This document shows, in pieces, positions 41,907 to 64,000 of a stretch of DNA of 64,000 nucleotides (its first letter is position 1; each line of letters opens with the position of its first letter). Origin of the DNA: Planctomycetales bacterium ZRK34. GTDB taxonomy: Bacteria > Planctomycetota > Phycisphaerae > Phycisphaerales > Zrk34. Both the position numbers and the translations under genes were made by a program. The notes beneath the pieces are model-generated. The model was not told the origin of the DNA. It saw only the letters and a program-made list of their open reading frames with translations, and did not search any database. The DNA lies in the NCBI GenBank assembly GCA_014873095.1, contig CP050848.1, forward strand, positions 1,426,001-1,490,000, written 5' to 3'.

Positions 41907-44216
41907 TCACTGTCCATCCGACTTCGCCGGCCACGACCAGTGTTTCAGATCGTCGCTCCAGGCGATCCCCAAACTGGCGAAATTGTCGAACCCGCCGCGC
42001 GGATCCTTCTCGGGATAGTCCGACCCGTGAAAGAACATCAACGCCTTGCCCACACGCGGATCGCCGCGCAGATCGAGCACGAAACCAGCGGTCAACCGCC
42101 CCTGCGTCCACGGCCACTGCTTCTGCCCGAGCGTGAGCACGCCCTGGTCCTGCCAGTGCTCCAGGTCGCGCGAGCGTTTGATGCCGATGCCATTGGGCGG
42201 CGAGTGAAACATCACATACTCGTCACCATCGCGGATCACACAGACGTTTTCGCCGCCTTCGACGCGCCCCGCGTAGTGCCATGTTTTCAGATCGCGCGAC
42301 CACGATCGGCTCACGCCATGCTGCTTGTAAAAGCACCACCACTTGCCGGGATCATCACGATCACGCAACAAATAGGGATCGATCATGCGGCCCATCTTTC
42401 CGCGCGGCACTTCGGGCCCTTTCACGCGGAGCAGTTCCGGCTCGGACCATTGCTCAAGGTCGTCGCTGCGCATGGTCCATACACGCGAGGTGGCGTTGCC
42501 GTAGGGTTCCCCGTTGGGTCGCGGATAGGTTTGCAGACACATCACCCACTGATCGCCGAAACGGATGATGTTGCCGGGGCTGCCGTAGTTCAGATTCTGA
42601 TCGCGCGGCGTCAGCTTGCGCGGCTTCGACCAGTCGATCAGATTCGTACTCCGACTGGTCGCAAGGTATGAATACGCCTGACCGTCGGACTCTACTTCAA
42701 CGAGCGTGAAGAACAGGTGGAATACACCCTCGTGATAGCGCACCGTTGGATCTCGATAAGCCGTATGCGCATCCCCGCGAAAGATGATCGGCGACGGGAT
42801 CGCGCTCAGGTCCACCGGCTCAGCGGTATCGATATTCATCTGGTCGCACCAACTGCGCACCTGCTCGTACAATCGCCGCACCTCGGCGGGGCGATCCGCA
42901 GCAAGATTACGCTGCTCATGCGCATCGGCTGACAGGTCGATGAGCACGGCGTCAGACCCGTCGGGGTTGATCAGCAATTTCAGATCACCTTCGCGGATGC
43001 TCAGCTTCGGGCTGATGTAATCCGGGTTACCGGGTTTGATCCCGGCCCGTCGCCCGCCGAATTCCCACACGATCGGCGCGGCTCGCTTGACCGGCTGCCC
43101 CATCAGCGCCGCGGTCATGTTCTGCCCGTCGGGGGCGACGTCGTCGGGCAGGTCCACCCCGGCGATGTGACAGAACGTCGGCAGCAGATCGATGCCGGCC
43201 ATGATAGTCTGCGTGTCGACTTTGCCGGCTGGAACACGCCCCAACCAGCGTGCGACAAATGGCTCGCGTACGCCGCCTTCGTACAGACTCCACTTGCGCC
43301 CGAAGAGGCCGCCCGTGCTGCCGGGGGGCGTGCCGCCGTCTTTGTAGTAGAACGGCCAGTCGGTTGGGCCGTTGTCGCTGGTGAGCACGATGAGCGTATT
43401 CTCGGCAAGGCCCGCCTTGTCGATGGCGTCGAACAGCCGCCCGAGTTGGCGGTCCATCTCCACGAGCACCGCCAGAAACTTCGCGTCGTAAGCGTTGTCC
43501 GCCACGTTCGTGTACTTGTCCGCTTCGCCGGGGACGGGCTTGTGCGCGTCGTGCACATCGTTGGGCCAGACTTCGAGGTAGAACGGTTTGTCGACATGGC
43601 GATGGATGAAGTCGATCGCGCGATCGACATAGATGCGGGTCTTCTCGTGCTTGCGGGCCCACTGGATTTTGCCGCGGCCGAGTTTGGCGCTGGCATTGGA
43701 CAGGCCGTCGTTGTATTCCAGCACGCGATCGCCAAGCCCTTCGAAGCTGACGAGCGATTCGTCAAAGCCATACGCCTGCGGCGGTGGCGCATCATCGACA
43801 TCGCGTCCCCCACCCATGTGCCATTTACCGAAGTGGGCCGTGGCGTAGCCGTGCTGTTTGAGCAACCGGGCGATCGTCGGGGCTTTGGGATCCAGGTAAT
43901 CGGCCATGCCGCGCCGACGATTCTTGGCGCGGCTGTTGAGGTACGAATGAATCTTCCACCGCTGGGGGTATTGGCCGGTCGCGAAAGCGACTCGCGAGGG
44001 CGAGCAGATCGGCGAGTTCACGTAAAAGTTGGTCAGTCGCAACCCTTGCGCGGCCAGGCGATCCATGTTCGGCGTATCGACCTTGCGATTGCCGTAGACG
44101 CTCGGATCGCCATAGCCCATATCATCGATGAGCACGAATACAATGTTGGGTTGATCCGGATTCGCCGCCCACCCCGCCGGGCAACACATCGCAACCATCA
44201 GCAATACACGCCGCAT
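41907..44216 (-). CDS. Sulfatase fused to a GH43/GH117-like five-bladed propeller domain
   Basis: 769 residues from ATG 44216, which shares one base with the prepilin stop (TGATG). After a signal peptide, residues about 20-480 form an S1 sulfatase: IVFVLIDDMGYGD, formylglycine motif CSPSRVAFATG (C71), HFGKWHMGGG, LTSDNGPTDW and GGVREPFVARW. From about 485 the chain changes to a five-bladed glycosidase-like propeller with GDAHTAYRDPTV, YSYLATSRSTNLIDW, GKMGRMIDPYLLRD and RSRDLEHWQDQG, as in GH43/GH117-type proteins. The fusion would couple desulfation with binding or hydrolysis of the same saccharide. It is the last gene of cassette 1. Confidence 0.88.
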   Translation of the reverse strand: MRRVLLMVAMCCPAGWAANPDQPNIVFVLIDDMGYGDPSVYGNRKVDTPNMDRLAAQGLRLTNFYVNSPICSPSRVAFATGQYPQRWKIHSYLNSRAKNRRRGMADYLDPKAPTIARLLKQHGYATAHFGKWHMGGGRDVDDAPPPQAYGFDESLVSFEGLGDRVLEYNDGLSNASAKLGRGKIQWARKHEKTRIYVDRAIDFIHRHVDKPFYLEVWPNDVHDAHKPVPGEADKYTNVADNAYDAKFLAVLVEMDRQLGRLFDAIDKAGLAENTLIVLTSDNGPTDWPFYYKDGGTPPGSTGGLFGRKWSLYEGGVREPFVARWLGRVPAGKVDTQTIMAGIDLLPTFCHIAGVDLPDDVAPDGQNMTAALMGQPVKRAAPIVWEFGGRRAGIKPGNPDYISPKLSIREGDLKLLINPDGSDAVLIDLSADAHEQRNLAADRPAEVRRLYEQVRSWCDQMNIDTAEPVDLSAIPSPIIFRGDAHTAYRDPTVRYHEGVFHLFFTLVEVESDGQAYSYLATSRSTNLIDWSKPRKLTPRDQNLNYGSPGNIIRFGDQWVMCLQTYPRPNGEPYGNATSRVWTMRSDDLEQWSEPELLRVKGPEVPRGKMGRMIDPYLLRDRDDPGKWWCFYKQHGVSRSWSRDLKTWHYAGRVEGGENVCVIRDGDEYVMFHSPPNGIGIKRSRDLEHWQDQGVLTLGQKQWPWTQGRLTAGFVLDLRGDPRVGKALMFFHGSDYPEKDPRGGFDNFASLGIAWSDDLKHWSWPAKSDGQ

Positions 44217-44956
44217 CAACGAAAGATATCCCTGTAGACCTGCTCTTGCAAAAGAAAACCGTCAGCGCCGTCCTGGTAACTAGCCCCACCGTTCAGATCA
44301 CGGATTTCGAATTGTGGATCGTTGAAGAAGGCGACATCACCGGCCATTCGCAGCACGTTGTAACCTTCCTCGTGATGCCAGTCGACACCGCGTGCAGGAT
44401 CGATGAATGCATCAGCCATGATCGCAATCGTACCAGAATCCGTGCCCATTCGAGCGCTGCGGTAGTTCGGGGCATTGATCACGCATCGATAGTTATAACT
44501 GCTTTGGGCGTACGACTGGCCGACCGGCAGCACGTTGTCATCCGGCCATCCGCCTCCGGAACTGTTGTCGTCCAGTTGATCGTATTGGATGCCGGGATAC
44601 TCCCAACTCGGGCAATAGAATATTTTGGGGGTGGTATAACCGAGCCCGGCAAGAATGCCGTGCTGGCGGAAGCGACGGATTTCGGGCATGTTCTCAAGGC
44701 CTGTCGAGGGGGCATACCAGATGGCGTACAAGCCCCAGCCCCCGTCGAGTTCGGGCTGGCCGCGGACCAGTTCGCCGCGGTGATCGTTAGCCCACATGAT
44801 ATGCGCCATGCCGATCTGCCTCAGGTTGGAGCCGCACGCCGCGCGCCGGGCGATTTCACGTGCCCTATCCATCGACGGCAAGAGAATCGCAATCAGTAAT
44901 GCGATGATCGCCACGACGACCAACAACTCGATGAGTGTAAAACCATGTCGGCGCAT
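44216..44956 (-). CDS. Prepilin-type N-terminal cleavage/methylation domain protein
   Basis: 246 residues. The N-terminus [28 protein letters not shown] is written here only in part: a G|FTLIE prepilin peptidase site plus a long hydrophobic helix. The body has a histidine block near the C-terminus ([16 protein letters not shown]) that resembles the H-X-DG motif of planctomycetal pseudopilins (DUF1559-like). It should assemble as, or interact with, a type II secretion or pilus-like fibre. It lies between the PEP-CTERM-like gene and the sulfatase fusion in cassette 1, with a one-base stop/start overlap to the latter. Confidence 0.9.
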
Positions 44957-45005: not shown

Positions 45006-45812
45006 TCAATGTGAACGACGACGCATCAACATGCCGCCGAGCAGGACAAGCCCAGCCGGCAGCGCGGCCGGTGTGGGAATCGCCGTTGTAAGATCAGCGA
45101 AACCCCCGATGATCGACGGCGCAAAGTTTGACTTTTCGTACGTGCGATTGTTTGAATTGGCGATATACGCGGCGAGGCTTTGCCAACCTTCGAGCTGGCC
45201 AGATCCGGAAACCTGAAAATAGTTGGCGCCCGACATCATCGAGCCGAAATTGCCGGGGGCGTCCTCATCCGGGTAATAGAAGTTGAGTCGATTGCCGCCA
45301 TAGGTTGCCGAAGAAACGCTCGCGCCAGTGTTGTTGATGAAGTCGCTGAGCGTAGCGTACTGCCCGACATCGCCGTCGTTTTGCGACGAGTTGTCGCCTT
45401 CGTAGGTGACGTAAAACCCACCGGTATTGGCATCGTAGCTGAGCCCGTGCAATTCGCCGGCATTGTAGGCGCCCGTGCTTTGGGTGGTCGGCGCATCGGC
45501 GGCGAGCCAGCTTGTCAGAGAATTCCAGCGATTCACTTCGCCGTTGCCCGCCACGCCGTAGACACTGCCATCGGGCGTCATGGTGAATCCCTGATACGAG
45601 GCGTAGGCCGCGACGGTCGTTTCAGTCGTGCCCTGACTGCCGAGGGAGATGTTGTCGAAAGCCGTGGAACCACCGGATGCATCGAACCCGGCATAAGAAC
45701 GGATCGTGCCGCCATCGTTGATCAGGTACACCGTAGCGGCATCTACCGGTGCGGCCATGACGATCATCAGCCCGATCACCAGCAGGCTCAATTTCAGTTG
45801 CAGTTTCCTCAT
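45006..45812 (-). CDS. Secreted PEP-CTERM-like surface protein
   Basis: 268 residues from ATG 45812, with AAAGGAG six bases upstream, overlapping the FecR stop by one base (TGATG). A signal peptide (ending APVDAATVY) precedes a Gly/Ser/Asn-rich beta protein with propeller-like repeats. The C-terminus is [18 protein letters not shown] followed by an Arg cluster (MRRRSH): a short Pro-rich motif, a membrane helix and basic end, as in PEP-CTERM/exosortase sorting signals although the second Pro-Glu-Pro is replaced by Pro-Thr-Pro. Probably anchored on the cell surface after processing. It is the secreted partner in cassette 1. Confidence 0.87.
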
Positions 45813-47131
45813 CACTTGCTCCTTTCACGAGAATTGGTTTGCACTTGAACTGTGGTCCCCGAGGTCTGATGCGCCACAATCAACCGCAAATCGTCCGGGC
45901 CGTACCCGACCCACCGAACGCTCACGGCATTACGCTCGGGGCTCCAGTCGATGCGATCGGCGCCCGACTCGAGCCCGCGAATGCTCAGCGTGTCATAACG
46001 GGTGTACGGCGAACCAAGCGTCGGGTCGGTTCGGCCCAACAGCGCGGTGTCATCAATGGCGGCGAGGATCGGACGGTCGAACTGGATCGCTCCCTCAAGC
46101 TCGACATCTTCAAGCCCCGTGGCGTCTTTATGAAGCAGGTAGACATCGACAAGCGTGCCGGCAGCGACTTTGCCATGCGGCGTGACCAGATCGCTGTCCA
46201 GCTTCACCGCCGCACGTTCGAGGAATGCAAACATGGTTGTGTCGTCGGTCAACCGGTCGTTCTGCACGCTCGCCGGTGGATCATCAAGCCACGTCACCGC
46301 ACCCGAGACGCGCGGGGCGACCGGCACGCCCAAGCGCACCACATGGCCCGCAATTGGGTCATACTCCAGCATCTGATCGGCCGTCAGGTCGAGTGGCTCA
46401 ATGGCGACAATAGCCTGCTCGCTGGTGCGAACCTGAACCAGGCCCTGCGTCACGTGCACGCGCACCCGGCCCGAGTGTTCATCGACCGCCATCTCAAATT
46501 GCGTCCCCAGATCGACCACCACCAGCCCCCCCGGCCCCAGCACGGTAAAACCCCGCGCATCCGGCGGACACGTGAATCGCGCCCGACCTTGCGTCAATCC
46601 CACATGCATGGAATCCTTCAGATGAATCTCCGTAGCCCCCGCCAGCCCGACCTGCGTGCCCGAAGTCAGTAAGAATCCCGCAAAGCCGGAAGCCATACGG
46701 ATGGTTCCCGCGGCAACGTCCTGCCCCTCATAAAAAGGCTCAGAACGCCATGACACATTCTCAGCACTGGTCAACGTCGCCAGCATCTGAGGCCGCGAGG
46801 GTTTCATGGGTGCTACGGAAGCCGACTCCCGCGACCAAAGGACAAACCACGCCATCACCAACAGCGTGATCAGCGCCGCGGTAGCCAGAATCGGAACACG
46901 TCGTGATTGCCAGAGACTGGCCCGTGGAGCCGGCAACGTCATAGCCGGCACGGCCAATCCACCGTGTTGCCATTGCAGGGCGGCTTCAATCCGCATGAGC
47001 CGAACGTATTCATCGACCAGCGAGGTGTCTGCCGCCATCCGGACGTTGAGCTCGGCGACTTCATCCGGCAAGGCCACACCCGCCAGGCAGGACGCCATCA
47101 AACGATCGGATTCGACGTCCAGGCGACTCAT
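45812..47131 (-). CDS. FecR-type membrane anti-sigma factor
   Basis: 439 residues. The cytoplasmic N-terminus (CLAGVALPDEVAELNVRMAADTSLVDEYVRL pattern) matches the anti-sigma domain shared with the other two FecR genes here. One transmembrane segment lies at about 80-99. The FecR domain is at about 110-265 (FTVLGPGGLVVVDLGTQFEM). The last ~140 residues form a domain like that seen in secreted PEP-CTERM proteins (GTLVDVYLLHKD...GAIQFDRPILAAI...TLSIRGLESGAD). The ATG overlaps the ECF sigma stop (ATGA). It should hold the sigma factor inactive until an extracytoplasmic signal arrives. Confidence 0.88.
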   Translation of the reverse strand: MSRLDVESDRLMASCLAGVALPDEVAELNVRMAADTSLVDEYVRLMRIEAALQWQHGGLAVPAMTLPAPRASLWQSRRVPILATAALITLLVMAWFVLWSRESASVAPMKPSRPQMLATLTSAENVSWRSEPFYEGQDVAAGTIRMASGFAGFLLTSGTQVGLAGATEIHLKDSMHVGLTQGRARFTCPPDARGFTVLGPGGLVVVDLGTQFEMAVDEHSGRVRVHVTQGLVQVRTSEQAIVAIEPLDLTADQMLEYDPIAGHVVRLGVPVAPRVSGAVTWLDDPPASVQNDRLTDDTTMFAFLERAAVKLDSDLVTPHGKVAAGTLVDVYLLHKDATGLEDVELEGAIQFDRPILAAIDDTALLGRTDPTLGSPYTRYDTLSIRGLESGADRIDWSPERNAVSVRWVGYGPDDLRLIVAHQTSGTTVQVQTNSRERSK

Positions 47132-47658
47132 GCGTCGGCCCCCCGAGCCAGTTTCGTATCAATGCAATCGGCCAGTAGCCGACGAATGCGATGCAGCGTC
47201 ACCGCCAATCCACGCGGGCTGCGATTCGATTCGGCCGCGAGGCACTGTACGCTCTGCTGAGCGCGGTACCGACGATCCAGCAGTGCGCGGTGGTCCGCCG
47301 ACAGCTTCGTAATGCAATCGACCAGTGCGAGCTGCCTTGCATCGTTGGGTTCGGACTCATCCATGCAACGCGATGCGATACGGTCCATCACATCCGCATC
47401 AAAGATCAACCGATCACGTGAAACACGTTCGCGCGCCGCCAGAATCTGATGCCGGGCGATCGCCTTGGCCCAGGGCCCGAACGGGCGCGACGGATCGTAC
47501 TGCCCTGCCTTGCGCCAGAGTACGAGATTCGTCTCCTGAAAGATTTCCTGAGCCAGGTCTGCCTTGCCCACAACCGCCAGAATAAACGCCCATAGACGCG
47601 ACTGGTGATCGGTCAACAACTGAACAAAGCGTTCGAGATCATTCGGATTCAACGACAA
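47128..47658 (-). CDS. ECF sigma-70 factor, cassette 1
   Basis: About 176 residues from a TTG at 47658, chosen because GGGAGG lies six bases upstream; a GTG at 47697 gives 189 residues without a Shine-Dalgarno. Region 2 is RLWAFILAVVGKADLAQEIFQETNLVLW with the PFGPWAKAIARHQIL block; region 4 is KLSADHRALLDRRY then SVQCLAAESNRSPRGLAVTLHRIRRLL. It resembles the planctomycetal/verrucomicrobial sigma family (TIGR02989 type, from memory). Its gene overlaps that of the FecR-type anti-sigma, which is the standard ECF-regulator arrangement. Confidence 0.9.
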   Translation of the reverse strand: MSLNPNDLERFVQLLTDHQSRLWAFILAVVGKADLAQEIFQETNLVLWRKAGQYDPSRPFGPWAKAIARHQILAARERVSRDRLIFDADVMDRIASRCMDESEPNDARQLALVDCITKLSADHRALLDRRYRAQQSVQCLAAESNRSPRGLAVTLHRIRRLLADCIDTKLARGADA

Positions 47659-47664
47659 AGCGAA

Positions 47665-47670
47665 CCTCCC
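47665..47670 (-). promoter_or_regulatory. Ribosome binding site deciding a TTG start
   Basis: GGGAGG on the minus strand, six bases before TTG 47658. It is the only good Shine-Dalgarno sequence near this gene's 5' end. Confidence 0.6.
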
Positions 47671-47733
47671 GGCCCGATCACGCTTGTGACCTGCCACTAC
47701 CAGTTAGGGCCAACAGGCATCAGATTAACAGCT

Positions 47734-47753
47734 CGGCAAAAATAATTTTGCCG
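47734..47753. promoter_or_regulatory. 20-base palindrome upstream of ECF sigma gene
   Basis: CGGCAAAA-ataa-TTTTGCCG lies between the sulfatase stop (47808) and the ECF sigma start. It could be an operator or a weak terminator; TTGACA on the minus strand at 47777-47782 lies just upstream of it. Confidence 0.5.
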
Positions 47754-47807: not shown

Positions 47808-49292
47808 TTACGGGTGTGTCGCGCTGGTCGCATCCAGCGGTTTGACTATCTTAGCCATCCGCCGAACGAATGTGTTCATCACACCCAGAGAATCCGGCTG
47901 CCCGGCGATGTTCACCGTTTCATGCGGGTCGGACTTGTGATCGTACAACTCGCGCGCGATCAGTCGCTGATTATGCACATCATACCACTCGGTGTAACGG
48001 TAGCGCTGCGTGCGTATCGAGTACCCCATCGCCTGAATGGGGTTTTTGTCGCTCGGATAGGCCGGCCGGCAGTGCCATGTGTATGCAGCGGGTTTGACCG
48101 TCGCAACCGGATCGTCCAGCACCTTGCGCAGGCTCACGCCTTCTGTCGCCTTCACCGCCGGCAGGCCGCATAGATCCACCAGCGTCGGGTACATATCCAG
48201 CAGTTCAACGATCGAGTCGGAGTGTCGCCCGCCGGGGTGGCCGGGCGCCGCGATGATCAGCGGCACGCGCGCGTCGAGTTCGAAGTTCGACGTCTTGGCC
48301 CACAGCGCCTGCTCGCCGAGGTGGTACCCGTGATCCGACCAGAACACGATGACGGTGTTGTCGGACAGGCCCAGGCGATCCAGTTCATCGATCACCTTGC
48401 CGATCTGCGCATCAAGATAGCTGATCGCCGCGTAGTATCCGTGACGCAGCGTCAACACCTGCTCGGGTGTCACCTGGTGCTTCGGAAACGGCCCGAGAAT
48501 TTCCTTGCTGTCGTGCATCGCGATCGCCGGCACATTCACCGGCGGCTCGGGATGGGTCGGCGGCGTGATCTGCGATCGGTCGTACATGTCCCAGTATTTT
48601 TTCGGCGCGTTAAATGGCGTGTGCGGCTTCCAGAATCCGACCGCCAGAAACCACGGCTGTCCTTTCGCCTTCAGCTTGCCGAGCGCTTCGACCGCCAGGT
48701 TCGCAATCCGCCCGTCAAAGTAAGCCTCATCCGGCACATCGCGCATCTCGCATTTGGGCGTGTTGATCAGGTCCGGCGGGAGCTGCCCCTCGACCTGCGG
48801 CTTGTCGTTGTAGTGTGAGTTGTAATGCATCACCGCCGGCACGCTCCACGAAATCGCATCGCCCTTGTAATCGTCCTGCCGCCAGTTGTGGAAGATCTTG
48901 CCGATATTCTGCGTGAAGTACCCGTTCTGCTTGAAATGCTGCGGCAGGGTCACCACGTCCGGGATGCGCTGACGGAAATGCGTGTGAAGATCCCAGATGT
49001 TCATCGTCCGCAGGCGGATGCCTGTCATCAGCGAGGCGCGCGACGGATTGCACAACGCCTGCTGACAATACGCCCGGTCGAATCGCATGCCTCGCTTGGC
49101 CAGCGCATCAATGTTCGGTGATTTGACGATCGTGTCGCCGTAGCAGCCGAGTTCGACGCGCAGGTCGTCGACGCCGATGAACAGAACATTAGGGCGTTTG
49201 TCAGACGACGCGAACGCTGGAAGACACATCAACACAGCCGCCATAAAAACTGCGGCCAAGGCGGCCAAACGATGAATGCGTGACGATAACAC
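47808..49292 (-). CDS. Sulfatase, iduronate-2-sulfatase-like
   Basis: 494 residues from GTG 49292, preceded by AAGGAG five bases away; the ATG at 49307 would lie inside or before that site. Signal peptide (ending PAFASSDK), then NVLFIGVDDLRVELGCYG and the formylglycine motif CNPSRASLMTG (C81). VDDLR-x-ELGCYG and WFLAVGFWKPHTPF are the diagnostic forms of iduronate-2-sulfatase-type enzymes. SDHGYHLGEQALWAKTSNFE is the second active-site block. It would remove 2-O-sulfate from a uronic acid-containing sulfated polysaccharide. Last gene of cassette 2. Confidence 0.93.
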   Translation of the reverse strand: MLSSRIHRLAALAAVFMAAVLMCLPAFASSDKRPNVLFIGVDDLRVELGCYGDTIVKSPNIDALAKRGMRFDRAYCQQALCNPSRASLMTGIRLRTMNIWDLHTHFRQRIPDVVTLPQHFKQNGYFTQNIGKIFHNWRQDDYKGDAISWSVPAVMHYNSHYNDKPQVEGQLPPDLINTPKCEMRDVPDEAYFDGRIANLAVEALGKLKAKGQPWFLAVGFWKPHTPFNAPKKYWDMYDRSQITPPTHPEPPVNVPAIAMHDSKEILGPFPKHQVTPEQVLTLRHGYYAAISYLDAQIGKVIDELDRLGLSDNTVIVFWSDHGYHLGEQALWAKTSNFELDARVPLIIAAPGHPGGRHSDSIVELLDMYPTLVDLCGLPAVKATEGVSLRKVLDDPVATVKPAAYTWHCRPAYPSDKNPIQAMGYSIRTQRYRYTEWYDVHNQRLIARELYDHKSDPHETVNIAGQPDSLGVMNTFVRRMAKIVKPLDATSATHP

Positions 49293-49297
49293 GGGCG

Positions 49298-49303
49298 CTC
49301 CTT
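49298..49303 (-). promoter_or_regulatory. Ribosome binding site deciding a GTG start
   Basis: AAGGAG on the minus strand, five bases before GTG 49292; it argues against the ATG at 49307. Confidence 0.7.
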
Positions 49304-49308
49304 GCATA

Positions 49309-50697
49309 TTAATGCGAGCCCAACTCGGTGATGAACACCTGGTTGAACCTGCCGCCGGACTCATGCGGCATATTGCGGATGTAGGCGATGCGCCGCCCGT
49401 CGGGGCTGAACACGCACGCACCTTCCCATGGGGCCTGCATCGACTCATCGACGCGCGGCGACAGTCGTGTCGTCTGACCGCTCTGCGCATCGGTGATGCA
49501 GACGCTGCGATCCATCATGTGAGCGATCCAGCGGCCGTCGGGACTCCATGAAAAAGCCGAGGCAATGTCATGCGCGTTGTGGGTGAGTTGGGCCGACTCG
49601 CCGCTGTTGGGTGACGCCGTCCACAGCTGCACCACGCCGGCATCATCGCGCATGAGCATGGCGATGTGCGAGCCGTCGGGTGATGATCGCAACCAGTGGC
49701 GCGGGCCCTGAAGCCCGGGGTATTTGCGATCGGCGGTGAAGGTGAGCCGGCGCTGCACGACGCCGGCCGGCGGGCGCGGGCGCGTGGTGGCGGTGCCGGC
49801 GAGCGGGCCGTCGCCGAGACGTGTCAGATCATCCGGCAGGTCAACGATGTATGCTTCGCTGATCGTATCGCCCGATGCGGCAACGACATTGCCCTGAAAA
49901 GCGATGGCGCGATGCTGGCGTGATCCATCCGGCCGCAGATACCCGTCAATACCGACCCACGCATCGCTGTACGCTTTGCTGATCTGATCCGATCCGGGGG
50001 CGGGGGCATCGGTCGTGCGCGTCACGAGTACGGTGAAGTATTCACCATCATGATTGCGGGGATGATCATGCGTAACACGGACCGGATGATCAGGCACGCT
50101 GACACCGACGTTGCGATGGTTGTGTTCATGAGCGTCGGGGTCGGGCTCGTCGCCGAGCGCCGCCAGTACGTGGTCTTCATAGGTAAAGGAAACCCACTGC
50201 CCGTCCGGACTGAACACATGCACGTGGGTGCCGCCGCGCAGGGCGCCGGGTGTGAACGGCTCGGTCAGATCACGCGCATCGAGGTTGATCGCTTTGCCCG
50301 GAGCGTCGGCATCGACAATCACGCCCCGCCGGTGGTAGGCGGCGTATTGCCAGTCATCAGTCGGCTGCTCGGGCCCGTGAATGAACACGACGCGATCGTC
50401 GACCGGCGACGCGGTGACCACGCCGCAGTACGCACCATTCGATGACTTGTACAACACTTCGACCGCGCCGGTGTCGACGTTGATGCGCTCGATGCGGTTG
50501 CCGTTGAACACGCTGCCGGAGGGGTGGCGGATGTCGTAAATGATCCACTGCCCGTCGTGTGACCACACACCGGTGTTCGTCAGAATGTGGCCGTGTGGCG
50601 CGTGGGTGATCTGCCGCTCGTTAAGCCTTGCAGTCCCGGAGCAGCCCACGTTTGCCATCATGACCAACACCGCCATCGCCGCACAACACATTCGCAT
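49309..50697 (-). CDS. DUF3748/TolB-like propeller lipoprotein
   Basis: 462 residues from ATG 50697. The N-terminus (MRMCCAAMAVLVMMANVGCSG) looks like a lipoprotein signal with lipobox NVGC. Repeated TolB/WD40-like blocks follow: NTGVWSHDGQWIIYDIRH, HVFSPDGQWVSFTYEDHV, RSSPDGSHIAMLMRD, FSWSPDGRWIAHM and CVFSPDGRRIAYIRN. The layout matches DUF3748 proteins (E. coli YidR), of unknown function and linked to sugar-acid metabolism. It lies between a sialidase-like gene and the iduronate-sulfatase-like gene. Confidence 0.85.
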   Translation of the reverse strand: MRMCCAAMAVLVMMANVGCSGTARLNERQITHAPHGHILTNTGVWSHDGQWIIYDIRHPSGSVFNGNRIERINVDTGAVEVLYKSSNGAYCGVVTASPVDDRVVFIHGPEQPTDDWQYAAYHRRGVIVDADAPGKAINLDARDLTEPFTPGALRGGTHVHVFSPDGQWVSFTYEDHVLAALGDEPDPDAHEHNHRNVGVSVPDHPVRVTHDHPRNHDGEYFTVLVTRTTDAPAPGSDQISKAYSDAWVGIDGYLRPDGSRQHRAIAFQGNVVAASGDTISEAYIVDLPDDLTRLGDGPLAGTATTRPRPPAGVVQRRLTFTADRKYPGLQGPRHWLRSSPDGSHIAMLMRDDAGVVQLWTASPNSGESAQLTHNAHDIASAFSWSPDGRWIAHMMDRSVCITDAQSGQTTRLSPRVDESMQAPWEGACVFSPDGRRIAYIRNMPHESGGRFNQVFITELGSH

Positions 50698-55655: not shown

Positions 55656-55659
55656 CAGA

Positions 55660-55896
55660 CTACTCCTTCTCGGTGAATGGATTTTCAATCGGCATCAGTA
55701 GAACATGTGTCGGCGCGCCGTTTTTCGTCAGTACCGAAGCGGATGATTTCACCGCCGGCAAGAATGCGAAAAACCAGGCCGCCTGCCGAGCCGGTTCATG
55801 GGCCCGGGCCAGCGAAGGCCGCAGAATGGCGGTCAGCCGCGCGATGATGCGGACGACCATGAACCGTTCGATGAGTGTGAATGCCTGTTTACGCAT
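55660..55896 (-). pseudogene. Chimeric relic: prepilin N-terminus joined to FecR 3' end
   Basis: From ATG 55896 the frame reads MRKQAFTLIERFMVVRIIARL..., a decayed prepilin helix with charged substitutions (E-R-F, R-I-I, H-E-P). At about 55778 prepilin homology stops and the sequence matches the last ~120 bases of the FecR-NHL gene (57075-56955), first out of frame and then in frame for THVLLMPIENPFTEKE. It is the junction of a tandem duplication, not a functional gene. Confidence 0.82.
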
Positions 55897-55911
55897 ATCG
55901 TGATTTCCGAG

Positions 55912-55938
55912 AAGCCCGCGGATCCAATCCGTGGGCTT
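55912..55938. repeat. AAGCCC-type hairpin after PEP-CTERM copy 1
   Basis: AAGCCCGCGGAT and ATCCGTGGGCTT pair with one mismatch. It begins seven bases after the 55946 stop, exactly the position of the 44972-44998 hairpin in cassette 1. Confidence 0.8.
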
Positions 55939-55945
55939 GGTCATT

Positions 55946-56950
55946 TCAATATGAACGGCGGCGTTTGAGAGTCAGCAGCCCCACCATCATCAGTCCGCCA
56001 GGCAGCGCCGCGGGCGTCGGGATCAGTGCGAACATGGACGTCGCGTCGGCGAATCCGCCGGTGGCAACCACATACGTCGACAGCGAATCCGCATAGGCAA
56101 TCACGTCGTTCGGATTGCTCAGAGCAACGGTGGACCAGTAGGCGTAGCCCTCGATGTAGCGGGTATCCAATGCATTCTGGATGTTGCCGCCGGTATAAAG
56201 AGCGTTCAGTGTCGGTGTAGTGGCCAGGTTGGTGATTTCGTACTGGTTGGCCGCGGAGATGTTGCTCGTTCCGCCGATGACCAACAGGCGATCGTTGACG
56301 GCGTCGTAGCTGAGGCCGGTCGCATTGGAGACGCTGGCGATGTCCGCCACATAATTGCCCGCCGAGTCGAACTTGAAAATGGTGCCGTTGCCGCGGCTGG
56401 CGATGTAGAGGTTGCCGACAGAGTCCACCGCGATGCCGCGGGGTGTGTTCAACGTGTAGTTGACGCTATCGGTCTTGGCGATGAATGTCGTGACGGCGCC
56501 GGTGGATGTGTCGATCTTCTGCACGGTGTCATCCACACCGCCGGAGCCGAAAGCGATCGTGGCGTACAGATTGCCGTCGGCCCCGAGCACCATCTTGTCG
56601 GGACGATCCGCAAGTGTGGCCAGCAGGCCAATCGGCGTGCCGTCGGCGGCATAGCGGTTGATCTCATGATCCAGCGAACTGGCGATAAAGATGTCGCCGG
56701 TGCCGCTCTGCTGCGCGATGGAAGTCGGCAAGTCCATTCCGCTGGCGAATACACCCAGGTAATGCCAGTTGTCGCCGTCGACCTGATACTTCAGCACATT
56801 GTCGGAAATGCCCTGGGTCACGAGCACGGTCGTGTCGCCGCGCGCGATCGGCGCGGTCATCATCAACAGGCCCATGGCCATGACGACCAATGCAAACAGT
56901 CGCGTAGTCGGATTCGACACGATCGAGGTGGCTTGTGAACGATCTTGCAT
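55946..56950 (-). CDS. NHL-propeller PEP-CTERM-like surface protein, copy 1
   Basis: 334 residues from ATG 56950 (AAGGAG seven bases upstream), four bases after the FecR stop. Signal peptide ending PIARGDT. NHL propeller blocks include MVLGADGNLYATIAFG and the signature TDSVNYTLNTPRGIA. The tail is [19 protein letters not shown] then KRRRSY, a PEP-CTERM-like sorting signal. Shares most of its length with copy 2, differing mainly in the C-terminal propeller blades. Translationally linked to the FecR-NHL gene, so it is probably made when the sigma factor is active. Confidence 0.88.
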   Translation of the reverse strand: MQDRSQATSIVSNPTTRLFALVVMAMGLLMMTAPIARGDTTVLVTQGISDNVLKYQVDGDNWHYLGVFASGMDLPTSIAQQSGTGDIFIASSLDHEINRYAADGTPIGLLATLADRPDKMVLGADGNLYATIAFGSGGVDDTVQKIDTSTGAVTTFIAKTDSVNYTLNTPRGIAVDSVGNLYIASRGNGTIFKFDSAGNYVADIASVSNATGLSYDAVNDRLLVIGGTSNISAANQYEITNLATTPTLNALYTGGNIQNALDTRYIEGYAYWSTVALSNPNDVIAYADSLSTYVVATGGFADATSMFALIPTPAALPGGLMMVGLLTLKRRRSY

Positions 56951-56954
56951 CAAA

Positions 56955-58637
56955 TTACTCCTTCTCGGTGAGTGGATTTTCAGTTGGCATCAATAGAACA
57001 TGCGTCGGGCCGATCAGTTTTTCGTCGGCGCCGAAACGGATGATTTCACCGTCGGCAAGAACGCGAAAAACCAGTCGGGCTGAAGTGTCAACGACCAACG
57101 TGCTGCCATCGTCAAGTCGCTGGGCTTCGACGACGAAGTTCAGGGCGACCGGCGGATGCGCCCGAGCGGCGGGCGTCGGGTAAACCGACCAGAGGCCGCT
57201 GCCGGGGCCGCCGGTTTGCGTGGCGTAGAGTTTGTCATCGCGCCACAGCAACGATTGCGGACGCGACAGACCGTCGACGACCAGTTCCAGCAGTCGGCCG
57301 GGCTTGGCCGCCTCGGGGCCGGCAAACGCCAACACGTCGCCGGATTCACGATCGGCGACCAGCAACCGGCCGCGATCGTCGAAGCACATGCCGCGCGGCA
57401 CGCCGAAATGGCGCCCCGGGGCATCCGGGGCATACCTGTTGGCGATGAACACGTGCGCCGCGCTGCGCTGGACGCGATAGACCTGCTTCGAGTTGAAGGC
57501 ATCGGTAAAATACAGCGCTCCATCGGGGCCGAACACCAGCGTATCCGGCGTCACGCCCGGCGAGCCGGCACAGTACGTCGACTCGTATCGCCCCTCACGA
57601 TCGAAGCAGAGAATTCGGCCACCGGCATCCGACTCCGCCAGGTACACCCGACCATCAGGGCCCATGACGATGCCGCCGGGCCGCCGCATCGGCGGATTGC
57701 TCTCGGACGTGATGAAGCGGCCGATGTATTGACCGTTCAGGTCGTAGCGCAGCACCCGGTCGCCGCGCGTATCGCTGATGAGCACTTCGTCGCCGCGCTC
57801 GCTGTCGAACGCATGAACGTTCAACGCGATGTCGGTCGCCGTCGAGCGGTCGGCCGTCAGATGCACCGCCTGGTTGGCCGCCAGTTCGATCTGCCGACCG
57901 TTCATGGCGCCGCCGGTCAGACTCACACGCACGTGGCCTTTGAGCACGTGCACTTCGGTGCCGTCGACCTCCGACTGGGCCACGGCGAATCTCGTCCCCA
58001 AATCCATCACCTCAACGCCCGGCAAGCCGACGGAGAACCCCTTCATCGAAGGCGGACAGTCGAATACCGCCCGGCCACGAATCATCGTCACATGCATCGG
58101 GCCGTCGAGTCGGACCTCGGTGTCGCCGATCAGACTCATCATCGTGCCGGCCCCGATCATCAGGTCGGCTCGCCCCTCGCGGATCGCGATCGTACGATCG
58201 GCGATCGGCATCCCTTCGGTCAGCGGGTCAGAACCCCACGTGACGTTCCGGCTGTGAAGCAGCGTGGCGATGGCGATGCGGCCGGTCGGCGATGAGGATT
58301 CGCTCGACGAAACCGGTCGTTGGATCAGCCACCCCACTGCCGCCAGCAGAATCACCGCGGCGGCCGCGGCGTATTTCAGCCACGTCATGCCTCGCGGCGC
58401 GACGGTCGGCGCCGCATCGACGGCCGACTCAAACGGGATCGAACCGGTGGCGTCAACCTGGTAGCGACTGCGGATCGCGGCCGTAAGTTGAAAATATTCG
58501 TTGAACCAGCGACGTGCCTCAACATCGTGAACCAGCCGATCATTCAACGCGGCCAGCTCGGCGGGGCTGAGGTTGCCCTGTTCATACCCGGCCAGCAGTG
58601 CAGCCAGATCGTCGAAATGTTCGGCCGCCTGCGTCAT
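56955..58637 (-). CDS. FecR-type anti-sigma factor with extracytoplasmic NHL propeller
   Basis: 560 residues from ATG 58637, overlapping the ECF stop (ATGA); the longer open frame upstream is antisense/overlap with the sigma gene. N-terminal anti-sigma domain (LLAGYEQGNLSPAELAALND), transmembrane helix at about 85-106, FecR domain at about 120-275 (DLGTRFAVAQSEVDGTEVHVLKG). Then NHL repeats: GIVMGPDGRVYLAESD, LVFGPDGALYFTDAFN and GVPRGMCFDDRGRLLVADRESGD. A periplasmic propeller on a FecR protein is unusual and resembles the fold of the secreted partner next door. Confidence 0.9.
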   Translation of the reverse strand: MTQAAEHFDDLAALLAGYEQGNLSPAELAALNDRLVHDVEARRWFNEYFQLTAAIRSRYQVDATGSIPFESAVDAAPTVAPRGMTWLKYAAAAAVILLAAVGWLIQRPVSSSESSSPTGRIAIATLLHSRNVTWGSDPLTEGMPIADRTIAIREGRADLMIGAGTMMSLIGDTEVRLDGPMHVTMIRGRAVFDCPPSMKGFSVGLPGVEVMDLGTRFAVAQSEVDGTEVHVLKGHVRVSLTGGAMNGRQIELAANQAVHLTADRSTATDIALNVHAFDSERGDEVLISDTRGDRVLRYDLNGQYIGRFITSESNPPMRRPGGIVMGPDGRVYLAESDAGGRILCFDREGRYESTYCAGSPGVTPDTLVFGPDGALYFTDAFNSKQVYRVQRSAAHVFIANRYAPDAPGRHFGVPRGMCFDDRGRLLVADRESGDVLAFAGPEAAKPGRLLELVVDGLSRPQSLLWRDDKLYATQTGGPGSGLWSVYPTPAARAHPPVALNFVVEAQRLDDGSTLVVDTSARLVFRVLADGEIIRFGADEKLIGPTHVLLMPTENPLTEKE

Positions 58638-59155
58638 GAAGCGGCTCCTCGCGAGGCGGTCTGTCGTTGAATGCAATCGTTGAGCTTGCGGTAGACCCGA
58701 TGCAGCGTCTGGTAAACCGACTGCGGCTTGCGATCGGTGACGCGCGCGATTTCGTGGCCAGTCAGCGACTGGGCGTAACGCATCTCGATCAGGCGGCGCG
58801 AACGCTGCGTCAGTTGCTTCAGACAATGCTCCAGCGCCTGGGCCATGTCCTGGCTGGACATCGGCGTCATCCGGCTCCACTCGCTTTCGACCAGGTCCAA
58901 CACCTCGGCGTTGAGCATCACCGGCTCGCGATTCTTGCGGCGAAGCAGTTCGATCGACTCATTGCGGGCGACCTTGCGGACCCACGCCAGCAGATGGGTC
59001 TCATTTTCGAAGGTATCGCTGTGCTCGATCGCACGCACCATTGTCTCCTGGTAGACGTCTTCAGCCAGGTGATAATCGCGCACGATGGATAATATAAACC
59101 CAACGAACATAGGACGATGTGTCATTACACGCCGCACCACGGTTTCGCGATCCAT
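58634..59155 (-). CDS. ECF sigma-70 factor, cassette 2
   Basis: 173 residues; GGAGG six bases before the ATG. Region 2: FVGFILSIVRDYHLAEDVYQETMVRA and HLLAWVRKVARNESIELLRRKN. Region 4: QLTQRSRRLIEMRYAQSLTGHEIARVTDRKPQSVYQTLHRVYRKL. Of the same family as the 60664 and 47128 sigma genes. Followed by its FecR-NHL gene with ATGA overlap; a sialidase-like gene lies 79 bases upstream on the same strand and may share its transcript. Confidence 0.92.
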   Translation of the reverse strand: MDRETVVRRVMTHRPMFVGFILSIVRDYHLAEDVYQETMVRAIEHSDTFENETHLLAWVRKVARNESIELLRRKNREPVMLNAEVLDLVESEWSRMTPMSSQDMAQALEHCLKQLTQRSRRLIEMRYAQSLTGHEIARVTDRKPQSVYQTLHRVYRKLNDCIQRQTASRGAAS

Positions 59156-60663: not shown

Positions 60664-61185
60664 GTGGCAGCAGACCGAAATCGCATTCTCAAGACGATCA
60701 TGGCCGATCGGATGCGGTTGTTTTCGTACATCTGGGTGATCGTGCGGGATGAGCACATCGCGGAGGATGTTTTGCAGGACGTGTGGATTCTCGCCACGGA
60801 GAAGATCGACGATACGACGGACATTGAATCCCTGCGGGTGTGGATCCGCCGGGCGGCCCGCAACAAGGCCCTGCAGGCCGTGCAGCAGCGGACGCGCGAT
60901 CAACTCGTGTTCTCACCGCAGACGCTGGACAATCTCGACGCCGCCTGGGGCATGCAGGATTCCACGCGCGTCGATGAAACCATCACCGCACTGCGGATGT
61001 GCCTGGAGAAGTTGTCGCCATACGCCCGACGAGTGGTGGAGTTGCGTTACGTAGAGGGTTTGACCGGAACCCGGCTGGCCGAGGCGCTGAATCGAAATCT
61101 GACCGCGGCATACGTGGCTGTCAGTCGCATCAACAAAACGCTGGCCGAGTGCGTGCGAAATCGCATGGCGGAGGATCGGTCATGA
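60664..61185 (+). CDS. ECF sigma-70 factor, cassette 3
   Basis: 173 residues from GTG 60664, with GGAGG seven bases upstream. Region 2: LFSYIWVIVRDEHIAEDVLQDVWILA and SLRVWIRRAARNKALQAVQQ. Region 4: KLSPYARRVVELRYVEGLTGTRLAEALNRNLTAAYVAVSRINKTL. Homologous to the cassette 2 sigma. Its stop overlaps the next ATG (ATGA), coupling it to the FecR-LamG anti-sigma. Confidence 0.92.
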   Translation: MAADRNRILKTIMADRMRLFSYIWVIVRDEHIAEDVLQDVWILATEKIDDTTDIESLRVWIRRAARNKALQAVQQRTRDQLVFSPQTLDNLDAAWGMQDSTRVDETITALRMCLEKLSPYARRVVELRYVEGLTGTRLAEALNRNLTAAYVAVSRINKTLAECVRNRMAEDRS

Positions 61186-62768
61186 ATCAGCCTCCGCTCA
61201 ATCACGAAGCAGAGCCGCAGGGCGGCGACGATCGATTCGTCTGGCTGACCTGCCGCTATCTCGATGATGTGCTGGTGGAAGACGAGTTCATCGAACTGGA
61301 CGCGATGCTCAGCAGCGATGGTGAATTGACCCGTCGCTTTACCAGGCTGTGCCTTCAGGCGAGGCTGATGTCCGAGCCCCTGGCCGACCGCATCCGCTGG
61401 CTGATCGACACCGATCGATCGGCCACGCTCACGAAGCCGCAGACGACTGGTGTTCGCTGGACGCTGTGGCGATCGGCGATCGCGGCGATGCTCGTGTTTG
61501 CCGGGGCGGTGGGGTTGATCGTGGCGATGAACCTTGCCGGTCACCGCGCGGACGTGGCGCCACAGCCGATGGCGAATGTCGCCACGATTCCAATTGCGAC
61601 CATCACCGGGGCCAACGATGTCGACTGGCTCAGCGATCCGCTGAATCTTGGCGAGGATGTATCGCCGCGTGTGCTGTCGATCGGCGCCGGCACGCTGGAC
61701 ATTCAGCTATTCTCAGGCGTAGCGATGACAATCATCGGCCCGGCGCAGGTCGATCTGCGACAGCCGATGCACGTGCGCATCGACCGCGGAACGCTCTACG
61801 CCAGCGTGTCGCATTCGGCGATCGGGTTCACGGTCGAAAGCCCCGGCTGCCGCGTGATCGATCGGGGGACGGTGTTCGCCATCACCGTCGACGCTGCGGG
61901 GGCGACGACCCAGGTGAGCGTGATCGAGGGCTCCGTAGACGCCATGGCGCTGGACGCCGGCGGCCGCATCGTCGATACCCGACGCCTGTCCGTCGGCACG
62001 ACCTGCCGCGTGAGTCGCGAGTCTCAGCAGATCGCCATAGATGAGGTGACCCCGCAAAAACAGTATTCCAGGCACGTGATGTACCTGCGGCCGACGGCTT
62101 ACTGGCCGATGAACCAGCCGGACGCGTCGGCGATGCGCGATGTCATCGGGCAGCGCCCGACGGTGAATCATGCCGAAGCGCACTTCGAAGCGACCGGCCC
62201 CTTCAACGCGGCATATCGTTTCGACGGCAAGCCCAAAGGCATCGACACAGGCATCGGCCAACTGCTGCCGGAACTGGCCGACTTCACCATCACCCTCTGG
62301 CTGCGCACGAGCCAGCAGAGCCAGGGTCACCTGGTTTCAGACAACTGGGGCTTCGCCGGCCGCGCGAACTTTTACATCGAAGATGGACTCTTGAAATGGT
62401 TCATCGGGTCTGAACCGCAGGTGCACCTGGATTCACCCGGCCCCGTTGCGGACGATCGCTGGCACATGGCCGGCCTGACGCGCCGCGACGGTCTGTTCAC
62501 GCTTTATATCGACGGTCAGATCGTCGGCTCGCTGGATTCCGACGAGACCATCGCGCCGGCGAAATCCACCTGGGTGCTTGGCGGCTCTCCGACAGGCCAT
62601 CATGCATACACCGGCTGGCTGACTCAGACGGCCGTGTTTGATCGCGCCTTGAGTGCTGACCAGATCAACGCCCTGTACAAACTGGCGCCTGAACCATCAG
62701 AACACTTCGATCCGACACCTGCATCGCAATCCAGCAGATCAAACTCGAAACAGGAGATCAAGACATGA
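61182..62768 (+). CDS. FecR-type anti-sigma factor with LamG domain
   Basis: 528 residues from ATG 61182 (GGAGG seven bases upstream). Cytoplasmic anti-sigma part (CRYLDDVLVEDEFIELDAML), membrane helix at about 97-117, FecR domain at about 130-300 (CRVIDRGTVFAITVDAAG). A C-terminal LamG/concanavalin-like domain follows at about 305-515 (FNAAYRFDGKPKGIDTG, FTITLWLRTSQQSQ, WHMAGLTRRDGLFTLYIDGQIVG, LSADQINALYKLA). The LamG domain faces the outside and probably binds carbohydrate. ATGA overlaps on both sides (sigma gene and LamG-NHL gene). Confidence 0.92.
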   Translation: MNQPPLNHEAEPQGGDDRFVWLTCRYLDDVLVEDEFIELDAMLSSDGELTRRFTRLCLQARLMSEPLADRIRWLIDTDRSATLTKPQTTGVRWTLWRSAIAAMLVFAGAVGLIVAMNLAGHRADVAPQPMANVATIPIATITGANDVDWLSDPLNLGEDVSPRVLSIGAGTLDIQLFSGVAMTIIGPAQVDLRQPMHVRIDRGTLYASVSHSAIGFTVESPGCRVIDRGTVFAITVDAAGATTQVSVIEGSVDAMALDAGGRIVDTRRLSVGTTCRVSRESQQIAIDEVTPQKQYSRHVMYLRPTAYWPMNQPDASAMRDVIGQRPTVNHAEAHFEATGPFNAAYRFDGKPKGIDTGIGQLLPELADFTITLWLRTSQQSQGHLVSDNWGFAGRANFYIEDGLLKWFIGSEPQVHLDSPGPVADDRWHMAGLTRRDGLFTLYIDGQIVGSLDSDETIAPAKSTWVLGGSPTGHHAYTGWLTQTAVFDRALSADQINALYKLAPEPSEHFDPTPASQSSRSNSKQEIKT

Positions 62769-64000
62769 GAACGACGCTTATCCGCATGCCGCTGATTGCC
62801 GCCGCCGCGCTGAGCCTCACATGCGCCGCGGAAGCCGACATCACCACCGGCCTCATCGGCCAATGGCGCTTTGATGAAACCAGCGGGACCACCGCCGTCG
62901 ACACCATCGGCACGCTGGACGGCACAGCCGAAGGCGGCACGACGCTCGGCGTCGCCGGTGTGATCGATACGGCCTTCGGGTTCACGCCCTCCACCTCGGA
63001 CCGTGTGCAGCTCGACGGCTCGGCGGCGTCGCTGGTCCCCGCCACCGATGACTTCAGCGTCTTCGCCTGGGTCAAGGTCGACGCCGCCCCCGCCAGCCAG
63101 TACCACATCTTCTCGTCCAACAACGGGCAGGTCGGTCGGGCCAACCTCAGCGTCAACAGTTCCGGCCAGTTGTTCTGGTTCCAGAACGGCGGCGTCCCTG
63201 AAACCGCCGCGCCGGTCAATCTTGTCGACGGGCAGTATCACCTCGTCGGCATCACGCGACAGTCAAACAATTTCACGCTCCACGTCGACAATCAGGCGTT
63301 TGCCATCGGCTCCAGCGCCGGGGCGATCTCGCAGGCGGTCGATTGGCGCGTCGGTTCCTACGGCAGCGAGTCGACCGGATTCTTCGATGGATCGATCGAC
63401 GATGTGCGCGTCTACGACCGGGCCCTGAGCAGCAAAGACGTGAACCAGATGATCTACCGGGCAGGGAGCACCGCCGATGTGCTGATCGCCGATACGCTCA
63501 ACGGCCGCGTACTCAAGTACCACGTCGATGGAACAACATGGACGCAGACCGGCGTGTTCGCCTCGTCGCTGTCGCAACCCAACGGCATGGCGCAGGACGC
63601 CGCCGGCAATGTCTACATCGGTGAGGAATTCGACGGCGGAAGCGTGCTCAAGTATGACCGCAACGGCGTTCTGCTCGGCACCGTGGCCACCGAAGGCGTC
63701 GACTTCACCGGCCGGCCCGAAGCCCTGGAGATCGGGCCCGATGGGAATCTGTACATGTCCGTGGCTTTCGGCACGGACTCCGACCGCGTTTACATGATTG
63801 ACACCGCCACCAACGCCGTGTCCACCTTCGCCCCCACCACAGACAGCGTCAACTATACCTTGGACAACCCGCGCGGCATCGCCTTCGGGCCCGACGGCAA
63901 TCTCTACGTCACCAGCCGCGAAGGCGACACCATCACCATCTTCGACGGCTCCTCCGGCGCGTACCTCGGCGAACTCGCCACCGTTGACAGACCTCAGGGC
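62765..64000 (+). CDS. LamG-NHL secreted protein, 3' end beyond window
   Basis: At least 412 residues from ATG 62765 (AGGAG eight bases upstream), overlapping the FecR stop. Signal peptide ending CAAEADITT. LamG domain at about 25-230 (GLIGQWRFDETSGTTAVD; FTLHVDNQAFAIG; SIDDVRVYDRALSSKDVNQM). An NHL propeller follows (DVLIADTLNGRVLKYHVDG, LEIGPDGNLYMSVAFG) with the signature TDSVNYTLDNPRGIA. It repeats the two domain types seen in FecR proteins here. A PEP-CTERM tail is expected past 64000 but not seen. Confidence 0.9.
   Translation, partial: MRTTLIRMPLIAAAALSLTCAAEADITTGLIGQWRFDETSGTTAVDTIGTLDGTAEGGTTLGVAGVIDTAFGFTPSTSDRVQLDGSAASLVPATDDFSVFAWVKVDAAPASQYHIFSSNNGQVGRANLSVNSSGQLFWFQNGGVPETAAPVNLVDGQYHLVGITRQSNNFTLHVDNQAFAIGSSAGAISQAVDWRVGSYGSESTGFFDGSIDDVRVYDRALSSKDVNQMIYRAGSTADVLIADTLNGRVLKYHVDGTTWTQTGVFASSLSQPNGMAQDAAGNVYIGEEFDGGSVLKYDRNGVLLGTVATEGVDFTGRPEALEIGPDGNLYMSVAFGTDSDRVYMIDTATNAVSTFAPTTDSVNYTLDNPRGIAFGPDGNLYVTSREGDTITIFDGSSGAYLGELATVDRPQG

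Follow-up and report, generated by a model that had tools for sequence, protein, structure and literature searches.

The window analysed here, a stretch of 64,000 nucleotides from Planctomycetales bacterium ZRK34 (contig CP050848.1, positions 1,426,001 to 1,490,000 of the forward strand), carries three gene cassettes, each headed by the gene of an extracytoplasmic function (ECF) sigma factor, which is followed by genes for a FecR-type anti-sigma factor, a surface protein with a sorting tail and a prepilin, the prepilin gene of the third cassette lying just beyond the window. The C-terminal sensor domain of such anti-sigma factors was found to be inherited together with the surface protein encoded behind it, and in many cassettes it is a copy of a part of this protein. 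Bacteria with very many ECF sigma factors raise the question of what all of these sense and how sensor and output stay matched as the family expands. The sequences suggest that the cassettes are sensor-and-display operons, in which sensor and surface protein form a specificity pair recognising the same extracellular material, probably a glycan, a proposal that in our estimation might equally well turn out right or wrong. A preliminary description of this DNA had tied the surface protein to sensing, and the joint inheritance of this protein with the sensor domain is a new kind of support for this; the sensor copy and the reassortment reported below are additions to that description.

In the proposed mechanism, a membrane-bound anti-sigma factor would hold the ECF sigma factor, and its periplasmic end would be a ligand-type sensor domain binding the same extracellular material as the surface protein, probably a glycan. 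The genes downstream encode the exosortase-tailed surface protein and the prepilin. Material entering the periplasm would cause the anti-sigma factor to free the sigma factor, which would then transcribe its own operon from a promoter type common to the cassettes. New specificities would arise by tandem duplication and by recombination inside the anti-sigma gene, joining a sigma factor and a sigma-binding end to a sensor, a surface protein and a prepilin, and in roughly half of the cassettes the sensor is a tail-less partial copy of the surface protein. The ligand would have to get into the periplasm for this. One report on two planctomycetes states that labelled dextran binds to pili-like fibres and builds up in the periplasm (PMC5394234), and fibre binding of this kind would give the prepilin a role.

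A recurrent operon with a copied sensor domain

The source genome (G000) consists of one contig of 5,710,378 bases, in which TIGR02989 finds 110 sigma factors. The strongest 95 hits were examined and the 15 weakest left out. Of these 95, 93 head the same operon, composed of sigma factor, a FecR-type anti-sigma factor with one membrane span, usually one to four tailed proteins, and a prepilin; the remaining two, one at the contig edge and one in front of an open reading frame of 126 amino acids, were not counted. The three cassettes of the window are thus three of at least 93, which bears out the view that one unit made of sigma factor, anti-sigma factor, tailed surface protein and prepilin recurs; its order is also kept in a genome of a second genus (G005). 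The anti-sigma factors directly behind the 93 sigma factors comprise 400–620 residues with the strongest hydrophobic stretch beginning at residue 70–118, and the two genes overlap by four bases in 61 and by eight bases in 19 cassettes. The first gene behind the anti-sigma gene encodes a tailed protein in 82 cassettes, a prepilin in four and another protein in seven, the tailed counts being affected by a tail pattern that overlooks some forms. At least 90 of the 93 cassettes have a prepilin gene with the Pfam domain N_methyl on the same strand no more than 7 kb downstream, whereas 300 random sets gave 7.1 on average and 14 at most. Moreover, 100 of 150 scored prepilin hits are located at most 7 kb downstream from the gene of a cassette anti-sigma factor; 150 of 179 prepilin candidates were scored, and these counts are lower bounds. 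The counted cassette genes make up 7.3% of the genome.

The cargo encoded further downstream differs from cassette to cassette, and this bears on the sulfatase, which the preliminary description had included in the set. A planctomycete counterpart of the Sus-type polysaccharide locus, with the sulfatase as a fixed member, is a very improbable explanation of the cassettes. Sulfatases do follow in window cassettes 1 and 2, and 13 of 93 cassettes, more than expected, have a same-strand sulfatase gene in the 7 kb downstream (random mean 3.8, maximum 11; of 71 sulfatase places 68 were counted, the other three being second pieces of frames already represented), but the other 80 cassettes are without one in this range. 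The sulfatase was therefore rejected as a core member.

For the sensor, we took the C-terminal part of each anti-sigma factor, which follows the FecR domain, and compared it with the surface proteins and other proteins encoded behind all 93 anti-sigma factors. Pairs from the same operon match at E<1e-5 in 44 of 93 cases, compared to 63 among 8,556 mismatched pairs. In 41 cassettes the best-ranking protein is the own partner, every time at E<1e-5, and the summed score of the own pairs is 6,460, whereas 20,000 permutations gave a mean of 1,485 and a maximum of 2,200. Similarly, in the second genus 11 of 42 own pairs pass E<1e-5 compared to 8 of 1,722 mismatched pairs, and the own partner comes first in 15 of 42 (5,000 permutations: mean 1.1, maximum 6). 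The clearest example is the cassette with its sigma gene at G000:C1 530279, in which the end of the anti-sigma factor corresponds to almost the entire mature surface protein, lacking signal peptide and tail, at 62% identity. In the window, the anti-sigma factor of cassette 2 matches the product of the next gene at E 1.2e-9 (rank 3 of 93; NHL) and that of cassette 3 at E 3.8e-14 (rank 1 of 93; LamG). The partners in 43 matches are 42 tailed proteins and one prepilin-like LamG protein overlooked by the recognition pattern. Prepilin-like LamG proteins matching the sensor of their own anti-sigma factor were noticed in the cassette with the sigma gene at G000:C1 3512026 and, in a genome of a third genus (G003), at L177:9979-10845. 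A sensor copied in the prepilin was considered separately and rejected, with 0 of 85 in G000 and 1 of 31 in G003.

In 33 of the 43 matches no other sensor is as close as the own partner, and in 32 this holds reciprocally (the sensors compared being 93 from G000, 42 from G005 and 37 from G003), which points to many separate copying events. Two mirrored pairs (rows 0 and 16) predate the split of the genera, because both copies have orthologs in G005. In cassette 2 of the window, a DNA repeat (positions 55954-57082 against 54674-55785, 67% over 1,146 columns) spans the end of the anti-sigma gene and the surface protein gene. Between the two copies of the surface protein gene lies a relic open reading frame (55660..55944, minus strand), in which a decayed prepilin start runs into the anti-sigma 3' end, present here for a second time. 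This arrangement is most simply read as a cassette that was duplicated in tandem and then lost its middle part. Such events raise the alternative that the copies are by-products of tandem duplication, the neighbouring gene being the nearest donor and copies at the anti-sigma end being tolerated without function. The relic and the 33 copies resembling separate local events fit this alternative, which we nevertheless regard as improbable: the sensor is in frame, full length and tail-less, a sorting tail being present on none of the 93 anti-sigma factors, the two mirrored pairs are older than the genus split, and unmirrored sensors are also inherited together with the surface protein.

Reassortment between genera and a shared upstream motif

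The 93 cassettes of the source genome were compared with the 42 sampled cassettes of G005. Sensor and surface protein are both shared at 90 bits or more in 10 pairs, which involve nine G005 cassettes, compared to a mean of 0.33 and a maximum of 4 in 5,000 permutations. Seven of these 10 pairs join cassettes without a copy at E<1e-5, so that mutual likeness of sensor and surface protein cannot cause the co-inheritance in these seven; one of them, row 76, is borderline with E 1.2e-5, or 4.2e-6 in a smaller database. The prepilin is also the best partner in seven of the 10 pairs (a different seven), being 50–65% identical. The sigma factors of the 10 pairs are never best partners, ranking from 3 to 30 among 42. 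Conversely, 26 reciprocal best sigma pairs with a median identity of 59% were found, none of which shares sensor or surface protein at 60 bits.

This division runs through the anti-sigma factor itself, along which identity was measured for the 10 best sigma pairs, the 10 sensor pairs and 40 random pairs. In the sigma pairs, residues 1–70 are 39–59% identical and the part from residue 280 on 3–30%. In the sensor pairs, residues 1–70 are 17–34% identical, and from residue 280 on, identity is above 30% in 28 of 30 blocks. The random pairs reach a mean of 25% (maximum 39) in residues 1–70 and means of 21–22% (maximum 32) from residue 280 on, and the membrane span and the FecR part are near this background in sigma pairs and sensor pairs alike. 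Because residues 1–70 follow the sigma factor and the sensor follows the surface protein, the anti-sigma factor is a chimera in which a transducer end is joined to a specificity end. In the source genome, sigma factor and N-terminal part of the anti-sigma factor correlate across 83 cassettes (rho 0.141, maximum of 200 permutations 0.107). Simple inheritance of the cassette as a module was rejected, nine other gene pairs staying within the permutations among these 83 cassettes.

The regions upstream of the 93 sigma genes share a promoter-like motif, composed of an AT tract, about 9 bases, TGT and a GC block, which follows mostly 13–16 bases after a 24-base block. The motif model reaches a log-likelihood of 341, compared to 96–101 for three shuffles and 221 for 93 other genes; shuffles and other genes served as controls, reversed strings being unsuitable since they retain the motif. 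Trained on G000 and applied to G005, the model places 38 of 42 sigma upstream regions above the 95th percentile of 179 other upstream regions and 27 above the 99th. That many cassettes have one promoter type is in keeping with an exchangeable sigma half, and each sigma factor may read the shared motif itself.

On a larger scale, it is a tentative idea, which we hold to be rather less probable than its opposite, that the genome harbours a combinatorial receptor repertoire of about ninety sigma operons with chimeric anti-sigma factors, whose transducer and specificity halves reassort, into which a domain of the displayed protein is copied and which share one promoter type. As the displayed protein's own domain is copied into the anti-sigma factor, the cell would automatically have a sensor matched to what it displays, and as the cassettes share one promoter type, any transducer half could drive any specificity half. 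The inheritance of sensor and surface protein suggests in this way a route by which a bacterium could acquire a large set of sensors matched to its surface proteins. If true, dozens of anonymous sigma factors become testable sensor-output pairs, the expanded prepilins and exosortase-tailed proteins gain a regulatory role, and the cassettes provide a natural design for receptors with matched output.

Shared ligand or direct contact as possible modes of sensing

A glycan as shared ligand is suggested by the sensor families that Pfam recognises among the 93 anti-sigma factors, namely LamG_3 in 23, NPCBM, CBM96 and HpiC1-like domains in three each and NHL in two, next to single cases of F5/8, L-type lectin and CBM_4_9. 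Of ten strongly mirrored sensors, seven have no Pfam match at 0.05. Two Pfam-negative sensor families gave weak hints of a carbohydrate-binding module (2zew, E 0.0024) and of a ConA-like fold (2zzj, E 0.12). Fold matches of sensor structure models include lectins and calreticulin as well as unrelated folds and were used as hints only.

The main rival is direct contact, in which the sensor would touch the surface protein itself, like with like where a copy exists, without a separate ligand of the anti-sigma factor. The sensor would then signal the amount of surface protein still in the inner membrane ahead of sorting, or the engagement of this protein outside, comparable to the contact between FecA and FecR. 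We consider this possible, with a clearly smaller share of the probability than would make it the expected outcome. In its favour, the copied part stops at most 15 residues from the tail cut point of the partner in 35 of the 43 matches, so that the two domains would share a membrane until sorting takes place, and sensor, surface protein and prepilin are co-inherited even where a copy is lacking. However, the recognised sensor families are mostly sugar-binding types, and the anti-sigma factors of G003 keep their C-terminal sensors although none of 37 cassettes has a tailed partner.

Several observations weigh against a shared ligand of sensor and surface protein and against parts of the mechanism built on it. 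Where the partner has several domains (25 cases), the copied one lies next to the tail in 17, towards the N-terminus in five and in between in three, a bias that a shared ligand does not predict and that direct contact near the membrane might. Most of the 93 sensors belong to no sugar-binding family of Pfam, and the structure models of two Pfam-negative sensors have a mean pLDDT of 56 and 52. About half of the cassettes have no detectable copy: profile comparison at a probability of at least 90 recovers 46 of 93 own pairs (59 of 1,200 mismatched pairs also pass), and 47 cassettes, window cassette 1 included, show no resemblance of sensor and partner even in this way. In two distant families, a copy at E<1e-5 is present in 0 of 14 cassettes of G070 and 0 of 6 of G027 (three of these six with a downstream gene). 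Regarding the reassortment, nine pairs share the sensor at 90 bits or more without the surface protein and eight the surface protein without the sensor. Within the source genome, likeness of sensors and likeness of surface proteins give a rho of 0.081, the maximum of 200 permutations being 0.091, and in the absence of a correlation beyond permutation the case for reassortment rests on the comparison of the two genera. Finally, a motif model trained on half of the data converged elsewhere, and 23 of 47 held-out regions exceeded the 95th percentile, or 17 of 47 in comparison with AT-matched regions. As no copy at E<1e-5 was found in 13 cassettes of G001, G002 and G008 either, the copy was rejected as a general feature of such anti-sigma factors.

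Gene map, distribution and known systems

The three cassettes lie where the preliminary description had placed them, and the gene junctions it reported were seen again: in all three, sigma stop and anti-sigma start overlap in ATGA by four bases, and the junction of anti-sigma and surface protein gene is overlapping in cassettes 1 and 3 and a four-base gap in cassette 2. Pfam likewise confirmed a prepilin and a sulfatase after the surface protein gene in cassettes 1 and 2. Coordinates follow the numbering of the window, and gene starts, taken from a hexamer-based gene caller, are approximate. The curated cut-off of TIGR02989, which describes an ECF subfamily of Rhodopirellula and Verrucomicrobium, is 124.55 bits and is exceeded by 64 of the 110 hits in the genome; the Pfam cut-off of the FecR domain PF04773 is 24 bits and is exceeded by all three anti-sigma factors of the window.

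Cassette 1 is encoded on the minus strand. Upstream of its sigma gene lies a copy of the promoter-like motif with AT tract, TGT and GC block (47704..47748, model score 11.6). The ECF sigma factor (47128..47697; approximate start, the caller preferring 47652) passes the cut-off of Sigma70_r2 and scores 146.5 bits with TIGR02989. It is followed by the anti-sigma factor (45812..47131; PF04773, 29.6 bits), for which a copy of its own surface protein was not detected, by the surface protein (45006..45815) with a tail common to many loci, [10 protein letters not shown]...RRR, by the prepilin (44216..44956; N_methyl, PF07963) and, as cargo, by a sulfatase with a GH43-like C-terminus in one frame (41907..44219; PF00884, PF04616).

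Cassette 2, also on the minus strand, begins with an ECF sigma factor (58634..59155; PF04542 for region 2 and PF08281 for region 4, both over the Pfam cut-off; TIGR02989 138.6 bits) and an anti-sigma factor with FecR domain and NHL-type sensor (56955..58637; PF04773 35.3 bits, PF01436). Two tailed propeller surface proteins follow, the first (55946..56953) with SBBP and NHL over cut-off and the second (54672..55655; PF01436) a tandem copy of it, and then the prepilin (53841..54632; PF07963, PF07596). Its cargo consists of a sulfatase (52368..53831; PF00884), a BNR-repeat-like protein (50718..52364; PF13088, E 9e-7, below cut-off), a DUF3748/PD40 propeller protein (49309..50778; PF12566, PF07676) and a second sulfatase (47808..49490; PF00884). 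The BNR-repeat-like cargo protein looks alike by eye to another one encoded upstream of the cassette 2 sigma gene (59235-60467).

Cassette 3 is encoded on the plus strand and comprises an ECF sigma factor (60664..61185; PF04542 and PF08281, both over the Pfam cut-off; TIGR02989 109.5 bits, below its own cut-off), an anti-sigma factor with FecR domain and LamG sensor (61182..62768; PF04773 31.8 bits, PF13385) and a tailed surface protein with LamG followed by NHL (62765..64000, continuing to 64348; PF13385, PF01436). A prepilin is present here as well, just past the edge of the window (64405-65157).

Genome-wide, PF04773 matches 37 places at E<=1e-3, and its region is common to 30 aligned anti-sigma factors; the anti-sigma factors also gave weak matches to RsiW (E 0.018) and CnrY (E 0.021). 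The tails consist of PxP, a hydrophobic stretch and RRR. In a scan of cassettes 1 and 2 with the NCBIfam tail models, neither surface protein of cassette 2 gave a match. Two EpsH exosortase genes over cut-off are present in the genome (G000:C1 2907321 and 5243417). Beside these two exosortases, the tails fall into two main forms, [10 protein letters not shown] and PEP, perhaps with one enzyme for each.

Anti-sigma profile matches number at least 101 in G000, at least 103 in G005 and at least 57 in G003 (lower bounds, 133 of 184–200 candidates having been scored), 21 in G001, 12 in G008 and 10 in G002, all genomes of one family. The other 15 of 21 genomes searched, three of which belong to the same family, gave 0–3 matches, and a match at E<=1e-20 occurs in 31 of 198 genomes of the class. 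The G005 sample comprised 40 stretches from the top of the match list, one near a contig start being skipped, and yielded 42 cassettes of 103 matches; 20 stretches of G003 yielded 37 cassettes of 57 matches. All 42 G005 cassettes have the sigma factor, 40 a tailed protein and 38 a prepilin. In G003, all 37 have the sigma factor, and the prepilin stands directly behind the anti-sigma factor in 31, two being without a downstream gene in the stretch. The order expected for related genomes is accordingly kept in G005, and G003 departs from it in having no tailed protein in any of its 37 sampled cassettes. The tailed protein is therefore not obligatory, and sigma factor, anti-sigma factor and prepilin make up the broader core in this family, the tailed protein being an addition seen in G000 and G005. 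In G070 (L204-L217), several proteins behind the anti-sigma factor end by eye in a dockerin-like repeat, not in an exosortase tail.

Among the published matches listed, with their titles and the starts of their abstracts, none describes the operon, the sensor copies or the reassorting halves, and a prior description is possible. Single components are well known. It was reported that SBP_bac_10 (DUF1559) prepilins amount to 41 or more genes per Planctomycetales genome (PMC8567305). The prepilins of cassettes 1 and 2 are of the same type, but here two thirds of the scored prepilins, as given above, are tied to a cassette anti-sigma factor. The two EpsH genes and the tail architecture resemble the PEP-CTERM/exosortase system. 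The commonest cassette tail, [10 protein letters not shown]...RRR, differs from it, and the cassette 1 surface protein passes TIGR03382 (16.4, cut-off 15.85) and misses PTPA-CTERM (13.4, under the cut-off of 29).

With FecI/FecR/FecA the cassettes have in common an ECF sigma factor, an anti-sigma factor with FecR domain and a surface protein encoded next door, but the cassette anti-sigma factor bears an extra C-terminal sensor domain, and a TonB-dependent receptor is absent among the scanned cassette genes of the window, the search being confined to these genes. In Bacteroidetes, Sus-type polysaccharide loci are under the control of ECF/FecR pairs. The likeness consists in ECF/FecR pairs beside glycan-handling genes; the recurring partners of the cassettes are, however, a tailed surface protein and a prepilin, SusC and SusD not having been searched for.

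The closest likeness in working, not in family, is found in SigI/RsgI. Clostridium thermocellum has eight sigma-I factors, and the C-terminal outer domain of RsgI is a carbohydrate-binding module, a PA14 pair or GH10, which binds polysaccharide (PMC4711584). The sigma-I factors are not ECF sigma factors, whereas the best families of the cassette sigma factors are ECF, and the RsgI family is absent from the Pfam and NCBIfam hits of the three window anti-sigma factors. In the portion of PMC4711584 considered here, RsgI is described with neither a neighbouring prepilin or exosortase-tailed partner nor a sensor copied out of the gene next to it, and reassorting halves are not mentioned either. Both systems possess paralogous pairs of a sigma factor and a membrane anti-sigma factor with a C-terminal sensor of carbohydrate type (LamG, NPCBM, CBM96 and lectin in the cassettes), and by this analogy RsgI may be regarded as the nearest worked-out precedent for sensing through a shared ligand.

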